From: Erysipelotrichaceae bacterium
GTDB lineage: Bacteria > Bacillota_I > Bacilli_A > RFN20 > CAG-826
Assembly (NCBI GenBank): GCA_015058945.1
Contig: SVBF01000018.1
Span: 1-64,000, forward strand
Reading direction: 5' to 3'
Length of the DNA stretch: 64,000 bases
Part shown: positions 8,806 through 27,351 of the stretch, one piece after another
Numbering within the stretch: the first letter of the stretch is position 1
Layout of the letters: every line of letters begins with the position of its first letter
Made by a program: the position numbers and the translations under genes
The notes under the pieces: model-generated
What the model saw: only the letters and a program-made list of their open reading frames with translations
What the model was told of the DNA's origin: nothing
The model's database searches: none

Positions 8806-9144
8806 TTACCACCAATAATCTTCATCGTCATCGGCGTCGAGCCCAAAAAGCAGCCAAAGAAAATAATAATGCCAATGTTTGTATCTGGGATCATCGGGGT
8901 GAAAATGGGGGCCGTGCTTTCCATGCGCATGGAAAATTGGTTTCCTTTTTCCACCTTTATAAAAAGCTTTGTCATAAGCTTCTTTTTTGCTGTTAGACCG
9001 AATGCGCGGAGCAGCTTTCTTCCTTTGGTAAAACATCACGTTTGGCCCGATACCCAAAAGCGGATAGGAATAATGACCAAGCGATGAGGGACTGCTCGAT
9101 TCGAAGCCATTCCAAACCATGAGAAATCCCAAGTGGAAGCCCAA
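8806..9144 (-). pseudogene. C-terminal toxin tip of the RHS protein (shifted frame)
   Basis: This reading frame continues the RHS protein after an apparent single-base deletion near 9112-9113. There a GG in place of GGG would restore the join FSWFG-N-GFESSSPSS. The tail is basic and His-rich: SNSKKEAYDKAFYKGG, then IFHAHGKHGPHFHPDD and HWHYYF. Such clustered histidines are typical of metal-dependent nuclease-like tips of polymorphic toxins, but I cannot name the family. The frame lacks its own ribosome-binding site. It should be read as the variable effector domain of the gene beginning at 13021. The last residues DDDEDYWW are acidic. Confidence 0.5.
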
Positions 9145-11279
9145 TCGCCCAATGCATCAAAGGCATCTCCAATACCTTCTGCCACCATTTTCGACAAATT
9201 CGTAAGAAGATGGGTTTGAGGCTCAGTAACCGCTAATGTGAAGAGCCCTGCGGCGGCAAGAATCCACATGATAGTTCCAAATGTGAAGGCTATCGCTTCG
9301 TGACCGGTCGCATCGGTATACGTTACGGGGTCGTTGTAGCAATAGACGTACGGGTTTACCCCGTCGATCCTAGAGGCGTCGAGGTAATCCACACCGTCGG
9401 GGCTCAGCCAGCGGTAGAGGAACGGGGCGTACCATCGCGTTCCGAAGAGGTAGAGACCGCTCTCCTTATCGTATAGCCCGCCTTTATAACGGATGGGGTT
9501 GACGTTGCCGACGAAGGATTGCGACGCGTTCTCGTTCCACGATGCGTCGTAGACCTTACCGTTGCCGAAGGCGTCGTAGGCGTACCTCGCGACGACGCCC
9601 GAACCGTTAACGATCGCCGAAACGTTCCCATAGGCATCGAATCGGTAAAGGTAATTGCCGGCCGCGGACCCGCCGCGGACGACGAAGCCCATCGGTCCGC
9701 GGGCCCCATAGAGGAACAGCACAGAATAAGAGTCGCTTATCTCCTCGATCAGGCGCCCAGACGGGTCTCGGACGAAGGTGGAGTCCCTGCCGGACCCGGC
9801 CCTGCCGACCAGGTTTCCGAAGGCGTCGTAGGAGAATGAATTCGCCCCATAAGACGCAAGCCTACCACTCTGCCACGTGAGCGCCGTCCCCGCGATGGAG
9901 GAGGGATATCCGGAGACACTAGCGACCGAAACCCCGTCGACGGAGGTCAGCAACGCCCCCCACGCGGAGGTGAAGCCGAACGTATGCAGCGTCGAGGTGC
10001 TCGATCCGGAGGTCGAGTACGGACCTTGCCGCACCCGCCACAAGTTGCCCGAGGAATCATAGTCGTAGAAATAGGACGCGCCGAGGCGTTCGTTATTCTC
10101 GCGGATTATCCTGCCATTGCCGTCCCTGACGAAGCTCTCACTTTTGTTTCCGCCGTCGCCGATCGTCCGCGCCGTGACCCTGCCCGCCGAATCGAGGGTG
10201 AGGCCCTCCGTGGAGGTCGACGGGACGTGGCTCGTGGGCATCACTGTCGTGGAGATCGAGGTTACCCTATCGAGCGAATACGAGGGCGTTGACGTGACCT
10301 CAAAGGAGCCGAGAGAGGAGGCGACGTATTGGGTCCTGCCCTTGGCGTCGAGGGGGGTGGACTGCGAGAAGGTGTAGGTCACACCGGAGACCTGCAGCGT
10401 CCCGCCGACCTGAGTCGGGACGTTGGTCCCTCCGAGGTAGGTGACGGCGACGCTTTGGGCGTGACTTCTTGTCGCGGAGATCACGGTCCGGTGGGCGACC
10501 CTGCCCATGTCGTCCATCGTCACGCTCGCCGAAATGGCGGTGGACGGGTTCGACGGACAGGTTCGCGTTGCCGTCCGCGTCAAGCCATCGCTGCTCAGCG
10601 TGAAGACGGTGGTCGAGTTCGTCACGGAATCGTCGATCCTTCGCAAGGGGGAGGAATATGTTTCGGTTTCGCCCGCCTCGTCGGTGAACGCGTAGGTCAG
10701 GCTCGCCAGCGGCGTCGGCGAGGAGGAGCCGGTCAGCCGTTGCACTGAGACGGGCCTGCCATATTTCGAATAGACGGTCCTCACCCCTCCCGTGGCGCCG
10801 TAGTTGACGTCGCGTTTGGCGCCCGAGGCAGCAAAGGAGTTGAGCCGCGTCTCGTAGTAGCAGGACCCGCCCGCGACGGCGTAGGTGAGGCCTCCGAGGC
10901 CGTAGAGGAGCTGGACGCCCCCGGTGCCTTGGGAGGCGTGGGTCAGGTGGTTCAGTTCATAGGAGGAGGAGAGCGAGGCGCCGGCCCGAACGACCGTGGT
11001 CGCGTGCTCGTCGCGCGGCGTGAAACCGGCGGTGATCTGATAACCCCAGTCGCTCTGCGAGGCGTAGAGCCTTTTCACGTTGAGTGTCGACCCCGAGTAG
11101 ACGTAATGGAGGGTCAGGTCGGTCGTCGCGGCGGTCAGCGGCCGGGGGTCTTGCCCGGAGTAGGTCCGATTCTCATAGTCCCCGAGGGTGCCATCCCTAT
11201 ACGTTTCCTGGACGCCGGTGGGGTTGCCAAAGTCGTCGCGTGTGACGGCGTTTCCACCCAAGGGGCCCTCCCGCCCCAT
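9036..11279 (-). pseudogene. RHS/YD-repeat protein, middle and core part
   Basis: A 747-codon open stretch forming the second part of an RHS protein. It shows many YD-type repeats (DGNGRIIRENNERLGASYFYDYDSSGNL, written here in pieces: DGNGRIIREN, YFYDYDSSGNL) and the RHS-associated core RYKGGLYDKESGLYLFGTRW, YAPFLYRWLSPDG, NPYVYCYNDPV. RHS proteins build a hollow beta-barrel that encloses a C-terminal toxin. The 5' part is in another frame (11135-13021); inserting one G near 11327 joins them as SYDGDVESVSTSLFNQKG. The final residues of this frame after about 9113 look out of frame. Either both shifts are sequencing errors or the gene is decaying. Confidence 0.8.
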
Positions 11280-13021
11280 GGCGTCCCCCTTTTGGTTAAA
11301 CAGGGACGTCGAGACGCTTTCGACGTCCCGTCGTAGGAGGAGACGGCTTCCTCGAGCTTCGAGGAGACCGCCCGGAACCGGGTCATCGAATGCGCGCCGA
11401 ACGCGGGTTGGGCGTAGCAGCCGACGACGGCGGAGGACGGGGACTGCTTCGGAAAGTTCGGCCCATAACCAAAGGAGCCGCTCCGGAGCGTATGGAGGTC
11501 GTCGCAGAAGAAGAGGCTCTCACCCCTGAGGGCGAGGAGGACGTTCGCTGAGGCGTCGGAGGGGAATATGTACCCGTCCTCGGACCCGCCGGAATAGCGT
11601 CGGCCGTAGGAGTTACCGTAGCTCTTGGGGGACCAGTTCTGCCCGAAATACGGCCCGACCGAACCGCCGGAGGGGAGGCAGAAATCCACTGAGTCCGCGG
11701 CCACGACGCAAAGCTGGACGATCTTGACCGTGCCGTTTATGTTGGAGAAGGAAACGCGGAGATTCGCGATGCTCGTCGCGGAGGCGGTAAAGAAGCCGTA
11801 ACGGGTCCGCAGTGTCCCCGAGCCGGAGCCGAAATCCAAGGTCGGTCCGACCGTCGCCGAGTAGGATCTGAGCGTCGCGGAGAAAGAAACACCGGACTGG
11901 CCGGGCAGGGAGCAGGCGGAGAAGTCCGCGGTCATCGAGAAACAGTATTTTTTCCCGACCGTCAGCGACCCCGGCCCCATGTAGGAGCGGAAAACGTCGC
12001 CAAGGATGTCGTCGGTGCCGGAATTGAAGACGGTGAGCGGGTATTCCTCGGGCAGGGCGCGAAGATACGCCTTGGAGGCGAAAGGGGAGGAAAGGGGCTC
12101 CTTGGGCGGGGCGACGGCGCGCAGCCTCCCGGTCACGTCGCCGACCGTATCCACTTCATAACCGTCGTCGTAGGTGACGTCGCTGACCCGCCCTTGGAAG
12201 TTGGAGACGGTGGCACGGTTTGGCGCGTAGGTGACCGTGAGGAGTTCCTCTGCCGCGAAGGACGTCCCTTGGACGACCCCCTTGCCGAGGCTCGAGAGAC
12301 GGCCGTCGTTGTCGAAGACGACGTTCAGTACCTCCCCCGCGGGGTCGGTGACGCGCTGAAGCCCAGCGGGGATGTGGGCGAAGACCCTCTCCCATCCCCC
12401 GTCGCCGTCAGGCCCGGCGTATTTCAGCCCCGTCATCCTGCCCGACGCGTCCCTGGTGAACGTGGCGACGTGGGTGCCGCCGTTGAGCGAAAGGGAGTTC
12501 AGACTCGCCGTCAGCGTGTTGCCGAGCCGATCGGTCGTGGTGAAGGAGGAATTGGCGTAGGAGACCGTGAGGAGGACGTTGCCGTAGCCGTCCACCTTGC
12601 GGACGAGCTTACCACCCGTGAAAACGGAATTCGCGCCGCTCATGGCGTCGATAACGAGGGTGGATCCCGTGTTGTCCACGCGGGAATAGAGCCCCGAGCC
12701 GCGCGGGTCGTAACGGACCGAGGAATCGTCCTGGGTGGGGACGAACTCGATCTTGGAGCCGTCACCGAGGGTCAGCACGTTCGACGAATAGGTCTCCATG
12801 AAGGAGAGACGGACACCTTTCGGCAGGCAGTAATGGGCGTTGGAGGACCTGATGGCGGAGTCGTAGCATACCGCCACGGGGAAGAGGAACACGTTCTCGA
12901 AAAGGGGAAAAGAGCAATGCTCCACGCCGTCAAAGGCATTGCAGGAAAGCGTCGTCCCGTCCTGCGTTGTTAGACTTGCGATTGGGTGGAAGGGAACCAC
13001 CCCGGAACTTAAGGTTGTCAT
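11135..13021 (-). CDS. RHS/YD-repeat protein, N-terminal part (frameshifted)
   Basis: The start of a large RHS protein, about 1405 codons if both frameshifts are repaired. AAGGAGG lies ideally before the ATG at 13021. The product begins MTTLSSGVVPFHPIAS with no signal peptide or membrane anchor, so export would need a dedicated route. Early YD-like repeats appear, such as VDGYGNVLLTVSYANSSF, RDASGRMTGLKYAGPDGDGG and VVFDNDGRLSSLGKG. Residues after about the codon at 11327 are out of frame. By eye the codon use is GC-rich like the core genome, except for the AT-richer toxin tip. An inserted non-RHS segment around residues 300-500 is Ser/Gly-rich and aromatic. Confidence 0.8.
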   Translation of the reverse strand: MTTLSSGVVPFHPIASLTTQDGTTLSCNAFDGVEHCSFPLFENVFLFPVAVCYDSAIRSSNAHYCLPKGVRLSFMETYSSNVLTLGDGSKIEFVPTQDDSSVRYDPRGSGLYSRVDNTGSTLVIDAMSGANSVFTGGKLVRKVDGYGNVLLTVSYANSSFTTTDRLGNTLTASLNSLSLNGGTHVATFTRDASGRMTGLKYAGPDGDGGWERVFAHIPAGLQRVTDPAGEVLNVVFDNDGRLSSLGKGVVQGTSFAAEELLTVTYAPNRATVSNFQGRVSDVTYDDGYEVDTVGDVTGRLRAVAPPKEPLSSPFASKAYLRALPEEYPLTVFNSGTDDILGDVFRSYMGPGSLTVGKKYCFSMTADFSACSLPGQSGVSFSATLRSYSATVGPTLDFGSGSGTLRTRYGFFTASATSIANLRVSFSNINGTVKIVQLCVVAADSVDFCLPSGGSVGPYFGQNWSPKSYGNSYGRRYSGGSEDGYIFPSDASANVLLALRGESLFFCDDLHTLRSGSFGYGPNFPKQSPSSAVVGCYAQPAFGAHSMTRFRAVSSKLEEAVSSYDGTSKASRRPCLTKRGTPWGGRAPWVETPSHATTLATPPASRKRIGMAPSGTMRIGPTPGKTPGR

Positions 13022-13139: not shown

Positions 13140-13898
13140 TCAACATAGAAGAGATTTCCCGAGTTCAATCGCCAAATCGACGGCTTTGGTTTGCCGACGC
13201 CTTTCCCTCTCTCCGCCTAAGTCTCCCGCTTCCCAAGCGGCGGAAAGCAAATCGCCCGCGAAGAAGAAGACGTATAAGTCGACGCCGATATGGTTCGCGA
13301 TAGCCTCTAGCCCCGAAGCCTCCATGCCCACGCAAAGAACCCCTTCTTTCCTGCGCGCGGAGATCTTGGCCTTGGTTTCGTGGTACATGGCATCGGTCGT
13401 CCAGCCTTTGCCTGTGACGAAATCGACCCCTTGCCTTTCCAAGAAAGAAGCGACGGTTCCGTGGTTGGAGATCCTCAGGTAATCCGAAGGCGGGGCGTAA
13501 TGGAAGGAATAGCCTTCCTCGCGGTAGCACGCGCTCGGTACGAGGTACTTTCCCTTTAACGAAGGATCAAGCACCCCGCAGGAACCGAAATAGACGAAGC
13601 GATGCGCCCCAAACATATAGGCCACCTCTTCGAGCATCGCCCCCGCCACCGCGGCTCCGATCGGGGACATGAATAAAAGTACTTTGTCTTCCTTAAGGTA
13701 ATACATCGTCGCCGGCCCGTTCGCCGTCGCGGGGAAGATACGGTAAACCTCATAAGGTCGACTCGCCAAAACATAATCACGCGCCTTATAGGAAAAACAC
13801 ACGACCACCACGTCGCTGATAAAGGGGGACTTCTCATAGAAGTTCGCGGGAGTGATCAACGGCTCCCCGTCTTTTTCGTACGCCTTATGGATCGCCAT
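13140..13898 (-). CDS. nucleoside phosphorylase family protein
   Basis: A 252-residue protein of the PNP/uridine phosphorylase fold. These enzymes split nucleosides with phosphate to give base and ribose-1-phosphate in purine or pyrimidine salvage. Visible: GAAVAGAMLEEVAYMFGAHRF followed by VYFGSCGVLDPSLKGKYLV (the conserved GtcG loop) and the substrate-binding GVLCVGMEASGLEAIA (the 'vdMEaa.l' segment), each within 21 residues of the family pattern. I chose the ATG at 13898 (MAIHKAYEK). A TTG at 13919 would read SWHSK first, but CATAGT (-10-like) lies only 6 nt before 13898. Substrate class is not determined. A deleted second copy lies at 16004-16128. Confidence 0.8.
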   Translation of the reverse strand: MAIHKAYEKDGEPLITPANFYEKSPFISDVVVVCFSYKARDYVLASRPYEVYRIFPATANGPATMYYLKEDKVLLFMSPIGAAVAGAMLEEVAYMFGAHRFVYFGSCGVLDPSLKGKYLVPSACYREEGYSFHYAPPSDYLRISNHGTVASFLERQGVDFVTGKGWTTDAMYHETKAKISARRKEGVLCVGMEASGLEAIANHIGVDLYVFFFAGDLLSAAWEAGDLGGERERRRQTKAVDLAIELGKSLLC

Positions 13899-13904
13899 GG
13901 CTTT

Positions 13905-13910
13905 ACTATG
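13905..13910 (-). promoter_or_regulatory. -10 box directly before phosphorylase start (leaderless)
   Basis: CATAGT on the minus strand, 6 nt before the ATG at 13898, with no Shine-Dalgarno. The same arrangement is preserved in the degenerate copy near 16128. Confidence 0.4.
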
Positions 13911-13993
13911 CCATGACAAGGGAAAAGAGAAAGAGCAAACCTCATGTTATATTCGCTTAATTCCACACAACGATTCGATGTTATTATAAGAAC

Positions 13994-14968
13994 ATGTTTG
14001 CGCGCACATTCATTAAAATAGGCCTAAATATTTCTTTTGCCGTGACTGGCCTACACTCATCCATGATTGAGGACATGGAACTTTTCTTTCCTAGGGACAA
14101 CGACCCTGGAGAATCAACAAGCCTAATCGACGTCAACGGAGCGCTTCTAATACCCAATTATTTTTATTTTTGGAACCTCGAAACTAATTTTCCATCCAAT
14201 ACTTCGGGCGATTGTTCCTGGATTGCGGTCACTATGTATTTAAGTTATATGGAGGCATGCAACAAAAATGGTTTAATCAGTTCAAACTATGTTGTTCATT
14301 CTTTCGATAGCCTTTCTAACGTGGCTGCTTTTGGTGAATCTCCCGGCACCGTCGATGGCCAACCCTATAACAACTCTGATGGTATAACAAATAGTTTTTA
14401 TAAATGGTTTGTCCCCTATTATGAAGACCGTGGTTTTGATTGGCCTTTTCTTCGCTACAACCCTTTGTATTTGACGCACTTTTCGGACCAAGCGGCCTTA
14501 CTAAGAGCATATTTTGGGTCTTTATCCTACACTGAAAGCGTTGATTATTTTATTAATGAATATAGTTTTCTCATGCCAGGACCCGGTATGTTTAACTACA
14601 TTGTTAATGAGCTCCAAACAGGTAGACCCGTAATAGCAAATACAACCGCTCACTCATTTATTATTTATGGGTATATTCCAAATACGCATCAATTCATCGT
14701 GCATAATGGGTGGAAAAATGGACATAGCCATGACATCTTTGACAATGACAATCCCGATGGTGAGAGTTCAAGCGTTCAGTATGTGATTTCAAGTAATTTC
14801 TATGCCCACGCTCACTCATACTACTACCACAATGGAAACGCGGTTTACTGCGCTTGCGGCGATGACGCATGGTCGGTTCCTTATCTTCATAAGCACCAAT
14901 GGAGCATTCACTACGTCAAACCAAAAGTCTGGTACTATCAATGCACCATATGTGGGGAGAGGAACTGA
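13994..14968 (+). CDS. secreted papain-like cysteine protease with C-terminal Cys/His segment
   Basis: A 324-residue protein that is AT-richer than its surroundings. The N terminus (about residues 3-22) is hydrophobic and could serve as a signal peptide or anchor. Residues SGDCSWIAVTMYLSYMEA carry a Cys (C74) in the context seen in C39-like/C10-like papain-fold peptidases. H220 in TTAHSFIIYGYI and N238 in FIVHNGW complete a plausible Cys-His-Asn triad. The C terminus has YCACG, HKHQW and QCTICGE, a Cys/His pattern like a small zinc-binding module. The stop lies 4 nt before the next gene, a serpin-like lipoprotein, so the pair is almost certainly one operon. The substrate is unknown. A peptidase-like processing role is equally possible. 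Confidence 0.65.
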   Translation: MFARTFIKIGLNISFAVTGLHSSMIEDMELFFPRDNDPGESTSLIDVNGALLIPNYFYFWNLETNFPSNTSGDCSWIAVTMYLSYMEACNKNGLISSNYVVHSFDSLSNVAAFGESPGTVDGQPYNNSDGITNSFYKWFVPYYEDRGFDWPFLRYNPLYLTHFSDQAALLRAYFGSLSYTESVDYFINEYSFLMPGPGMFNYIVNELQTGRPVIANTTAHSFIIYGYIPNTHQFIVHNGWKNGHSHDIFDNDNPDGESSSVQYVISSNFYAHAHSYYYHNGNAVYCACGDDAWSVPYLHKHQWSIHYVKPKVWYYQCTICGERN

Positions 14969-14972
14969 TCTT

Positions 14973-15956
14973 GTGAAAAAGCCAATATCGATTGTTCACC
15001 TTCTTGTCCTTTTGGGTTTATTATCCGCATGCGAAAGCGTTTCCTACGCTCGGGAATGGACTGGGGAACTGAAACAGAACGCCGCCTCTTCCTTTCGAGC
15101 GAAGCAAGACGACCCATCCTATGCACGGGCAAAACTAAAACTCAGCTCAGGGTTTGGTGAAGGCAATGTTGTCTATTCCCCGACCTCTGCAATGCTTACG
15201 GACTTTGTCTATAGCCACAGGCTCGGTGACTATTCCTTTTACGTCAATAACGCATTAAACGCTGAGAATGGTGCCTTCAAGATATGTTCTAAGTCTGTCG
15301 TCGCCTCCACTAATGAGGTCGAGGAGACGCGGAGGGAAGAATATTTGGCCCATGGCGTTGATGTTTATGTTGGCACCATCCCAGCGCTGGAAACGAGCCT
15401 CGCCGATCATTTTGGGCAAAAAGTCACGCTTAATGGCAACCCTGGCGAATATGTCTTGTCCAAATTGACCCTGAATGATCGCTTTCCATTGCCATTACGC
15501 GAAAAATCGCTGCCGTTCGAAGGTCAAGGTTCTTTCACCTATGCCTCATATACGGGCGTTGGCCTTTACGCTAGCGAGGAAACTTATTCTGCCGTGACGA
15601 TCCGCATCGGCCAGACGTCCTTAGCTTTCTTTTTGCCCAAAGATGGGATTGAATTGAAAGCATTTAATACGGATTTCATTCTCTCTTCGAGTTGGAAAGA
15701 AGGACGGGTATCCGCCACCGCGCCACAGTTTTCTATCTCGTCGAGTCATCGCGACACCGAAGAGTCGCGAGAAATAGTCCAAGACTGTCGTTTTGACTTC
15801 AACCGTTATGGAGTCCACGGGGAGGCGTTCACGATCAACGGTCCGACGGCTATGTCGCCCGATTATGATTTCTCTTTGACCTTAGACCGCCCCTTCTTCT
15901 TTCTATCCTCCTATAGAAATCTACCAATATTTATCGGACAGGTGACGAAGCTTTGA
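14973..15956 (+). CDS. serpin-like lipoprotein
   Basis: A 327-residue protein from a GTG start. GAGAGGA lies about 11 nt upstream, and the signal peptide KKPISIVHLLVLLGLLSAC ends in a lipobox Cys at position 20. The body resembles a serpin: NVVYSPTSAM (cf. NvffSPlSi), LSKLTLNDRF, a strand run ending LAFFLPKDG (cf. 'iLPk.g'), and the C-terminal LTLDRPFFFL...LPIFIGQV (cf. 'aDrPFlf.I...iLFmGrv'). It is shorter than usual serpins. The reactive-loop hinge lacks the Ala-rich pattern (GVHGEAFTINGPTA), so inhibition by loop insertion is doubtful. It sits 4 nt after a papain-like protease gene. It may restrain that protease or host proteases, which is inference. Confidence 0.65.
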   Translation: MKKPISIVHLLVLLGLLSACESVSYAREWTGELKQNAASSFRAKQDDPSYARAKLKLSSGFGEGNVVYSPTSAMLTDFVYSHRLGDYSFYVNNALNAENGAFKICSKSVVASTNEVEETRREEYLAHGVDVYVGTIPALETSLADHFGQKVTLNGNPGEYVLSKLTLNDRFPLPLREKSLPFEGQGSFTYASYTGVGLYASEETYSAVTIRIGQTSLAFFLPKDGIELKAFNTDFILSSSWKEGRVSATAPQFSISSSHRDTEESREIVQDCRFDFNRYGVHGEAFTINGPTAMSPDYDFSLTLDRPFFFLSSYRNLPIFIGQVTKL

Positions 15957-16003
15957 CGCCAAAAAACAGGCTACCCTCTTGTGGTTTCCTATTCGACGAT
16001 TCC

Positions 16004-16128
16004 CCAAGTTCGATCACCAAATCGACGGCTTTGGTTTGCCGATGTCAATATGCTTGGCGATGGCCTCTAGGCCCGAAGCCTCCAAATCCACGCAAAGGAC
16101 CCCGACTTTTTGCCTTATGGATCGCCAT
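16004..16128 (-). pseudogene. internally deleted copy of the nucleoside phosphorylase
   Basis: Near-identical to both ends of the gene at 13140-13898. The first codons MAIHKA and upstream sequence to about 16172 match 13898-13942. They are then fused, out of frame, to the region encoding GVLCV-MEASGLEAIA and to the 3' end (DLVIELG). The middle of the gene, roughly 570 bases, is missing. The join creates a frameshift and an early stop, so it is not functional. Both copies flank the protease/serpin pair, in the same orientation. Confidence 0.75.
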
Positions 16129-16189
16129 GGCTTTACTATGCCATGACAAGGGAAAAGAGAAAGAGCAAACCTCTTCCCTTTTGCACCCA

Positions 16190-24879: not shown

Positions 24880-25764
24880 TTATATTGATTCTCTATAAAT
24901 AGAGACTATGTCTTCTAAAATACTTCTATCGATATTGTTATCTATAAACACGAGGTTTGTTTCTCTTATCAAATCTAAATTTTCAATGGGGAGCCCTACC
25001 AGTTTGTTTTCTTTTATTTCTCTAGAACAAGCGCTCTTTGGCAAAATAGAAATTCCAAGATTTTTTCTCACAAGCATTTTAATAGAAGCCACATTATCCA
25101 TTTCTAGTGATAAATGAAAATTGTTAATATCTTCGTCCATTTTCGCCAATTCATTAACGAAAAGAGTTGAGGTACCACTTTCAAGGTTTCTTAAGATAAG
25201 GTTTTCTTTTTTTAAATCGTTAATAGTAACTACTTTTTTATTAGCAAGAGGATTATCTAAGGAAACAACCGCTACCAAGGAATCGGTGCCAAGCAAAATA
25301 GAGGAGAATTTTTTATTAGTAATCTTTCCTTCAATTATTGCTAGATCAATCTGATAAAGGCTTAATTTCTCATAAAGGTTTTTTATAGAGTCAGAAATAA
25401 TTCTTATATGTGATCCACTATTTCTTTCTGAATATTTTGCCATGATTTCTGGAGCGATGTTGCTCTCGGAAGTATGGGTAATACCAACTGTCAAATTATT
25501 AGCACATTTCTTGTAATCTTTTAGTTTGCGATTCATATCGTTGTAAAGAGATTGAATGCGCAAAGCGTATTTAAGTACGATTTCCCCTTCTTTTGTTAGG
25601 GAAAGATTATTGTTTGATCGAATAAATAATTTTGCGTCAAATTCCTCTTCTAGTTGTTTGACGTGTTGGCTAACAGCGGGCTGAGTCAAATTTAGCGCTT
25701 TTGCGGCTTTAGTAAATGAATTTACTTCGCTTAATTCGATGAGAGTTAACAATTTTGCATCCAT
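24880..25764 (-). CDS. LysR-family transcriptional regulator
   Basis: A 294-residue protein with the N-terminal winged helix of LysR regulators (LTLIELSEVNSFTKAAKALN, LTQPAVSQHVKQLEEEF) and a C-terminal periplasmic-binding-like effector domain (LTVGITHTSESNIAPEIM, then ILLGTDSLVAVVS). The gene is markedly AT-rich with A/T-ending codons. It is divergent from a MATE transporter gene 106 nt away, the usual LysR target arrangement. It probably controls that transporter in response to a small ligand. The start lies 7 nt after a TATAAA box with no Shine-Dalgarno. Confidence 0.92.
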   Translation of the reverse strand: MDAKLLTLIELSEVNSFTKAAKALNLTQPAVSQHVKQLEEEFDAKLFIRSNNNLSLTKEGEIVLKYALRIQSLYNDMNRKLKDYKKCANNLTVGITHTSESNIAPEIMAKYSERNSGSHIRIISDSIKNLYEKLSLYQIDLAIIEGKITNKKFSSILLGTDSLVAVVSLDNPLANKKVVTINDLKKENLILRNLESGTSTLFVNELAKMDEDINNFHLSLEMDNVASIKMLVRKNLGISILPKSACSREIKENKLVGLPIENLDLIRETNLVFIDNNIDRSILEDIVSIYRESI

Positions 25765-25869
25765 GGATATATTTATAAACTTTTTTTATAGTAATGAAAG
25801 TTTCTCTTATTTATTTTTTCTTGTTTTTTGGACTAGATTCGAGCAAGAAATCTTTTTCAATTTACTGTT
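25765..25869. promoter_or_regulatory. divergent LysR/MATE intergenic control region
   Basis: 105 very AT-rich bases between the two divergent starts. On the minus strand TATAAA (25772-25777) lies 7 nt before the LysR ATG. No Shine-Dalgarno is seen before either start. A LysR box would be expected here but no clear T-N11-A palindrome could be singled out by eye. Confidence 0.4.
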
Positions 25870-27351
25870 ATGACTAACAATTTGGATTTAAAAAAGAAAG
25901 ATTTGTTTGAAAACAAACCCGTACTCCAGGCGATTCTAAGTTTAGCTATCCCTTCTATTATCGGGCAGCTTATTCTTGTCATCTATAACATCACCGATAC
26001 GTTCTTTATTGGATTAGCGGCGACTAATATGGCAGATAAGGAATTAGGGAACGCTTTAGTAGCAGGCGTAACTATTTGTATGCCTGTATATATGATATTA
26101 AGCGCCATATCGAATTTATTTGGGATAGGCGCCTCTAGCGTTATATCTCGTTCTCTCGGGAAAAATAATCCATGGAGAGCTAAAAATGCGTCTCGCTTTG
26201 CTTTTTATGCTTGTTTAATTACGACGTTAATTTATTGTTCATTCATTTTTATTATTAATAATCCTCTGTCTAATTTATTATCAGGAAACAAATCTCCTGA
26301 AACTTCTAGTTACGCTAGATCATATATCTTATATTGCGTAGTGATATTCGGTATTCCGACAGCGATTAATACACTGTTTTCCCATTTATTAAGAGCGCAA
26401 GGAAAATCTAAGCATGCTTCTTATGGGATTGTTCTAGGGGGATTGCTGAACTGCGGTTTAGATCCCCTGTTCATGTTTGTTATCATGCCATCGAATCCAG
26501 AAGTTGCCGCGGCTTTAGCAACCGGGATAGCGAATTCGATCGCGTTGATTTATTACGTTATCCTGATGATTATCAGGAAAAAGGATTTGGTAATTTCTAT
26601 TAAATTCTCTAAGAAAATGTTCACAGAAAACATTCCTAGCGAAGTCATTAAAGTCGGCATTCCAGCTTGCTTGATGACCTTATGCGAAAATGTTTCTTAT
26701 ATGATCCTTGATGCTTTAATCGGTTCAGTTATTGTCGTTAAAGCAGAAAGCGATGCCGCACTAGCAGGTATTGGAGTCGCCAAAAAAATCAATATGTTTG
26801 CTCATTCTTCCGTGAGGGGCATGACGCAAGGCGTTTTGCCTATCATCGGTTATAACAAGGCTAGTGGAAATCGTAAAAGGATGTCGAAAATTGTCTATGT
26901 TAGTGGCGCAATTTCAATAGGCATTGCTTTGTTTGCTATGATTGTTTCTATTATTTGGGCCGCTCCTTTATCCACTATCTTCATCCACGAAAACAATTCC
27001 ATTGCTTACGCCACAAAATTTTTAAGAATACTGTGCATTGGTTGTCCTTTTTCTGCCGTTGCTTATACAGTTATTTCCTTTTTCCAAGCTGTCGGTAAAC
27101 CTTGGAGAAGTCTTGTTTTGGCCTTATTGAGAAAAGGAGTTTTAGATATACCTTTAATGTTTATCTTCTTTTCTATCTCAAAAATGGAAAATAACTCTAT
27201 TGGACCAGAGCTTATAATTTGGGCCACTCCTATTACCGATATTATCTGCTCTTTTGTCGCGGTTACTTTGTTTTGCAGATATGTTAAACGCAATGGTAAA
27301 ACAGCACCCGCTTTTAATGAGCAAGGAAAATTCCCATCTCTAAAAGGCTAA
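25870..27351 (+). CDS. MATE-family multidrug efflux transporter
   Basis: A 493-residue integral membrane protein with twelve predicted helices in two homologous halves. Family signs: LAIPSIIGQLILVIYNITDT at the N terminus (P..i..l...ly...D..fig), GIGASSVISRSLGKN, HLLRAQGKSKHA and, in the second half, RGMTQGVLPIIGYNKASG. MATE proteins export cationic drugs or metabolites using sodium or proton gradients. The gene is AT-rich like the divergent LysR gene and probably arrived with it. The substrate is unknown. Confidence 0.92.
   Translation: MTNNLDLKKKDLFENKPVLQAILSLAIPSIIGQLILVIYNITDTFFIGLAATNMADKELGNALVAGVTICMPVYMILSAISNLFGIGASSVISRSLGKNNPWRAKNASRFAFYACLITTLIYCSFIFIINNPLSNLLSGNKSPETSSYARSYILYCVVIFGIPTAINTLFSHLLRAQGKSKHASYGIVLGGLLNCGLDPLFMFVIMPSNPEVAAALATGIANSIALIYYVILMIIRKKDLVISIKFSKKMFTENIPSEVIKVGIPACLMTLCENVSYMILDALIGSVIVVKAESDAALAGIGVAKKINMFAHSSVRGMTQGVLPIIGYNKASGNRKRMSKIVYVSGAISIGIALFAMIVSIIWAAPLSTIFIHENNSIAYATKFLRILCIGCPFSAVAYTVISFFQAVGKPWRSLVLALLRKGVLDIPLMFIFFSISKMENNSIGPELIIWATPITDIICSFVAVTLFCRYVKRNGKTAPAFNEQGKFPSLKG

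Follow-up and report, generated by a model that had tools for sequence, protein, structure and literature searches.

We find that a gene for a putative secreted papain-fold cysteine protease lies directly upstream of a gene for a lipoprotein predicted to have a serpin fold in the 64,000-nt stretch of DNA analysed here (the window; the host genome assembly is 1.46 Mb), and that pairs of this kind have been assembled repeatedly in related bacteria. We think it rather likely that the two genes form a unit in which the protease is encoded with its cognate, membrane-anchored serpin inhibitor, with self-protection or dosing of the enzyme as the most probable role. A secreted cysteine protease with a co-encoded inhibitor is a known arrangement; the serpin as candidate inhibitor is what is new. 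The roles of bacterial serpins have been described as enigmatic (PMC8233489), and a serpin whose gene stands beside that of its likely target, an arrangement reached several times independently, provides a native target that is directly testable.

The two open reading frames were confirmed at the following positions:

13994..14968, + strand: gene for a secreted, predicted papain-fold cysteine protease (324 aa), a distant relative of NCBIfam NF045837 (Mplas_Cys_pep)
14973..15956, + strand: gene for a short, predicted serpin-fold lipoprotein (327 aa, GTG start)

As the first-pass annotation had stated, the lipoprotein gene begins 4 nt after the papain-like gene. Both lie on the + strand, and an SD-like GGGGAGAGG stands upstream of the GTG start of the lipoprotein gene.

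The product of the first gene has an export-like segment at its N-terminus, then a papain-fold core, then a Cys/His tail. Pfam returned a weak C39-like match alone, and the NF045837 model matched residues 68-271 with 34.4 bits (E 2e-8), which is under the curated cut-off of 45 bits; the same model matches all 22 of the 22 aligned protease relatives. Judged by these profiles, the window protease is a distant member of the NCBIfam Mycoplasma "putative cysteine peptidase" group. A sequence search of the PDB with the protease found no papain relative. Its AlphaFold model (pLDDT 72) gave papain-fold matches to IdeS (Z 12) and to SpeB (streptopain) and cathepsins (Z about 10), in keeping with the original description of the protein as papain-like, and the model and invariant residues together indicate a clan CA papain fold with the Cys-His dyad in order. 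The residues and motifs concerned are these:

14213..14215, + strand: codon for catalytic Cys74, an invariant column in the protease-family alignment
14651..14653, + strand: codon for catalytic His220, likewise an invariant column in that alignment
14702..14704, + strand: codon for His237, which probably completes the catalytic set; relatives have H or N here
14849..14953, + strand: Cys/His tail CxCG..PYxHxH..CxxC, putatively metal-binding

The catalytic triad initially proposed was Cys74/His220/Asn238. Its first two members stand, both being invariant, and the third does not: Asn238 is not conserved in the family alignment, nearly all relatives carry H or N at position 237, and His237 is probably the third member. 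The Cys/His tail that had been pointed out is likewise real, its motif being invariant across the three closest proteases (those of the window and of loci L117 and L122).

The second gene carries a lipoprotein signal:

14973..15032, + strand: lipoprotein signal peptide and lipobox Cys20, read from the sequence, with signals likewise in all protease-paired relatives

The lipobox is LLSA-C20. The Pfam Serpin family (PF00079) matched residues 261-326 only, which are the last 66 aa, with 19.4 bits (E 7e-4) against a cut-off of 27 bits, and a sequence search of the PDB with the lipoprotein found no serpin relative. The AlphaFold2 model of the lipoprotein (pLDDT 69, pTM 0.69, with the loop itself below 50) was built from an alignment of locus proteins only, two of which are canonical serpins. 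Its best PDB match is a serpin (Z 24.3, rmsd 3.0, 273 residues, spanning 40-327), serpin matches as a whole cover residues 31-327, and serpins account for all 50 of the 50 Foldseek matches listed (best E 1e-14). A serpin fold comprises three sheets and eight to nine helices; the model shows this fold over most of the protein, with some helices shortened or missing. The first-pass annotation had claimed serpin-fold landmarks in this protein and had offered the lack of a serpin fold in structure prediction as the result that would speak against them; the fold predicted is that of a serpin, and according to the model the lipoprotein is a short, divergent member of that group, with the fold spanning the whole mature protein.

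Compared with its relatives, the window serpin lacks stretches in its N-terminal half and in the helix I region, as seen in alignments. The score of 18-19 bits to Pfam Serpin and the AT-rich, probably imported setting, with an intact gene on one side and its decayed copy on the other, might indicate that the short serpin is a decaying remnant that sits beside the protease by accident. We regard this as highly improbable, since the open frame, the SD-like site and the lipobox are all intact, and the same short form is kept with a protease in a different genus: the serpin of L117 is 24% identical to that of the window (E 2e-13) and lacks the same regions, which argues that the short form has been maintained. 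Six more pairs are known besides.

These pairs came from searching 224 genomes of the family, 279 of the order and 395 of the class with profiles of the protease alignment and of serpins, after which gene neighbourhoods were read. Single-sequence searches had suggested that the two genes lie apart in relatives, a result overturned by the profile searches and inspection of neighbours. The six further pairs, with their intergenic gaps, are L117 in G209 (-31 nt), L126 in G119 and L170 in G085 (about 6 nt each), L193 in G228 (18 nt), L192 in G233 (17-18 nt) and L267 in G488 (-1 nt). With the window, this makes seven genomes in five genera, three families and two orders. The protease gene is upstream in every pair, with gaps ranging from -31 to +18 nt, and the serpin is a lipoprotein every time; that of L267 is a full canonical serpin, scoring 134 bits to PF00079 and thus over the cut-off. 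The search of gut Bacilli genomes for the same pair that had been proposed at the outset therefore shows that it recurs, and the finding named beforehand as adverse, genes apart in all relatives, is not what we see. The closest protease of the same genus, at L122 (G159), keeps the Cys and His and has no adjoining serpin or lipoprotein gene. At L192 the protease has an in-frame stop and the serpin is intact; loss of the protease ahead of the serpin is what a protective serpin would predict.

Within the 224 family genomes, serpin-protease adjacency occurs in 4 genomes (3 genera) as against about 0.08 expected, a rough estimate from approximately 80 proteases, 140 serpins and 1,300 genes per genome; the adjacency is beyond chance. 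The two might instead be independent accessory surface genes, the serpin protecting the bacterium from host or competitor proteases, as has been proposed for the siropins and miropin, and the protease acting on host or diet proteins. Lipoprotein serpins standing alone are frequent in these bacteria (27 of 72 serpin loci have neither a protease nor an ECF gene), and inhibition of host proteases by gut serpins is documented (PMC8233489). Nonetheless, we hold such independence to be decidedly unlikely, as the adjacency with one protease family is tight, ordered and repeatedly evolved.

The repeated evolution emerges from both gene trees, in which long branches limit exact placements. Of the six distinct paired serpins, five occupy three separate branches of a clade of unusual serpins in the serpin tree, and that of L267 falls among canonical serpins; a single clade for the paired serpins is rejected (p 6e-9). 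The protease tree places the pairs in four positions and rejects a single clade for the paired proteases (p 1e-12). With a single origin rejected on both sides, serpins have come to stand beside this protease family more than once. This repetition is the strongest argument that protease and serpin are functionally linked, and the rise of such pairs again and again in related bacteria suggests that some bacterial serpins exist to restrain the cell's own secreted enzyme.

Whether the window serpin could act as serpins ordinarily do turns on its hinge and loop:

15810..15869, + strand: hinge and reactive-centre loop, located by alignments, with P15 at Gly280
15852-15854, + strand: codon for Met294, the nominal P1 according to standard spacing

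With standard spacing the loop reads G(P15)VHGEAFTINGPTAM(P1)/SPD, and in the alignment its length is within two residues of normal. The hinge, RYGVHGEAFT, departs from the inhibitory consensus at P17-P9 (ExGTEAAAA) and is, as had been remarked, not Ala-rich. A different mechanism had been surmised from this hinge and the shortness of the protein. Both features are real, but the hinge alone is no argument for it: the even, sheet-facing hinge positions carry small residues in every pair (P12 G/A, P10 S/A, P8 T/S), so that the window serpin may yet act by an ordinary serpin trap. Loop insertion is not assured, given the non-Ala-rich hinge and the missing helix I and other pieces. The pair at L267 is an independent one with a near-canonical serpin and hinge. 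We also considered a GPT motif at P5-P3 as a signature of the cognate site (GPTAM in the window, GPTGM in L117, GPSGG in L126) and rejected it, as it is absent from L193, L192 and L267.

We propose that the first gene would yield an exported papain-fold cysteine protease and the second, presumably from the same transcript, a serpin-fold lipoprotein held at the external side of the producing cell's membrane by its lipid anchor. Protease active at the producer's own surface would bind the serpin and attack its reactive-centre loop near Met294/Ser295; the cleaved loop would insert into the main sheet, and the enzyme would be trapped or wasted one for one. Protease diffusing away would keep its activity and work at a distance, leaving the producer protected from its own enzyme. 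Papain-like proteases are among the documented targets of serpins (PMC4493575, PMC8233489).

The lipoprotein may instead be a non-inhibitory partner, serving as a surface tether, a factor for substrate capture or activation, or a sensor cut by the protease, with a logic like that of the mycoplasma Ig-binding and Ig-cleaving MIB-MIP system. The departure of the hinge from the inhibitory consensus fits such a role, as does the company kept by each gene: the protease family's other partners are lipoproteins of unrelated kinds, some solute-binding-like, and relatives in the serpin clade are transmembrane proteins encoded with ECF sigma factors, which would suit sensing. We nevertheless consider a non-inhibitory role unlikely, because the serpin, best known as a protease-trapping fold, has been chosen repeatedly and independently beside a protease, and because the sheet-facing hinge positions keep small residues.

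The tendency of the protease family to be encoded beside lipoproteins, which the first-pass annotation did not describe, is general. An adjacent same-strand lipoprotein gene, mostly downstream, was found for 56 of 79 distinct family proteases versus 5 of 40 background genes (p 1e-9), a small background; a second rule for neighbouring genes, with a larger but cruder background, points in the same direction (lipoproteins in 48 of 92 versus 27 of 247). The partners belong to many unrelated families, mostly without a recognised inhibitor fold; one has a BamE-like stretch and three resemble solute-binding proteins by Pfam or sequence. The window pair is thus one case, with a serpin as the partner, of a general pairing of protease with lipoprotein. 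Unrelated small lipoproteins beside this one protease family occur at L069, L071, L073, L078, L084, L090, L103, L107, L110 and other loci. Such non-serpin partners are candidate new protease inhibitors or regulators, and they make up a ready list.

The inhibitor-encoding unit that we favour has several known counterparts. In Bacteroides, C10 proteases share transcripts with staphostatin-like inhibitors that are exported and in part lipoproteins (PMC3462683), and these Bfp/Btp and Bfi/Bti proteins resemble the window pair in being from gut bacteria and in having a papain-fold secreted protease directly beside an exported inhibitor, possibly a lipoprotein (PMC3462683). They differ in that the Bfi/Bti gene may precede or follow the protease gene, whereas the protease always comes first in window-type pairs; in that Bfp/Btp (family C10) is a lipoprotein with a propeptide, unlike the window protease; and in that Bfi/Bti is a staphostatin-like beta protein of approximately 120-140 aa, whereas the window's candidate inhibitor has a predicted serpin fold (PMC3462683). 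Co-transcription was measured for the Bacteroides pairs (PMC3462683) and may hold for the window pair, whose genes are 4 nt apart. In staphopain/staphostatin and SpeB/Spi a secreted cysteine protease gene is similarly contiguous with a dedicated inhibitor gene; however, staphostatins and Spi are small cytoplasmic proteins of other folds (PMC3462683), while the window lipoprotein is exported and membrane-anchored and its model has a serpin fold rather than that of a staphostatin or Spi. Prokaryotic serpins such as miropin, the siropins and thermoserpins share the fold, and many are exported (PMC8233489). Those known are full-length, the "hub" ones have an ExGTEAAAA hinge, and the ones studied are thought to face foreign proteases (PMC8233489), whereas the window serpin is short, lipid-anchored, has the hinge GVHGEAFT and is encoded with a protease. 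The mycoplasma NF045837 proteins are alike in the core, over residues 68-271, with the window protease under the cut-off (34 of 45 bits). A search of the literature accessible without subscription found no report of a bacterial serpin-protease operon or of a serpin linked to ECF or anti-sigma systems.

The surroundings of the module bear on how it arrived:

13140..13919, - strand: intact nucleoside phosphorylase (PNP_UDP) gene, identified by a domain match
15998..16173, - strand: partial, decayed second copy of PNP_UDP at the opposite flank, identified by sequence comparison
13882..13943, strand not applicable: left copy of a 62-nt direct repeat, 100% identical to the right copy
16112..16173, strand not applicable: right copy of that repeat, 100% identical to the left copy

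The decayed copy is a remnant of the ends of the intact gene, and the module is AT-rich (the protease gene has a GC3 of 0.42, and the median for ORFs of the window is 0.74). The AT-richness, the intact and decayed PNP_UDP genes and the perfect 62-nt repeats suggest that the module was imported via recombination at the PNP_UDP gene, or that the PNP_UDP gene was duplicated. The nearest named relatives of the window protease are in horse-faecal and RUG-series Bacilli/Erysipelotrichaceae MAGs, the latter presumably of rumen origin. Viral contigs contained no relative of the close protease type, the window protease was absent from phage search results, and the window serpin was absent from plasmid search results. 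Elsewhere in the window, two adjoining ORFs at 24880-27351 have its lowest GC3 (0.28 and 0.35; median 0.74) and are probably another imported segment. Large GC-rich minus-strand ORFs with YD/RHS-like repeats lie at 9036-13021, immediately left of the module.

Serpins of these bacteria also occur in a second setting. An ECF sigma factor gene, mostly with a 4-nt overlap, is directly beside 25 of 32 membrane-helix-scored serpins and 5 lipoprotein-scored serpins. The loci include the following:

L001 (own genome, C9:72100), L004, L006, L009, L148, L160, L164, L217-L225, L229, L230, L253 and others: ECF-adjoining serpins

These serpins have a cytoplasmic N-terminus of 30-60 aa and, given this and the ECF neighbour, resemble anti-sigma proteins whose outside domain is a serpin. 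It is possible, and we put this forward tentatively, that serpins in gut Bacilli make up a general surface-proteolysis kit, in which one lineage of unusual serpins would supply both lipid-anchored cognate guards against the cell's own cysteine proteases and forms fused to a membrane helix and encoded with ECF sigma factors, putative anti-sigma proteins that signal loop cleavage inward. Were this so, serpins would be parts of bacterial immunity and sensing, beyond weapons against foreign proteases. At L258 and L259 (genus g39), a lipoprotein serpin gene is followed 21 nt on by an ECF gene, the reverse of the order in the membrane-helix type.
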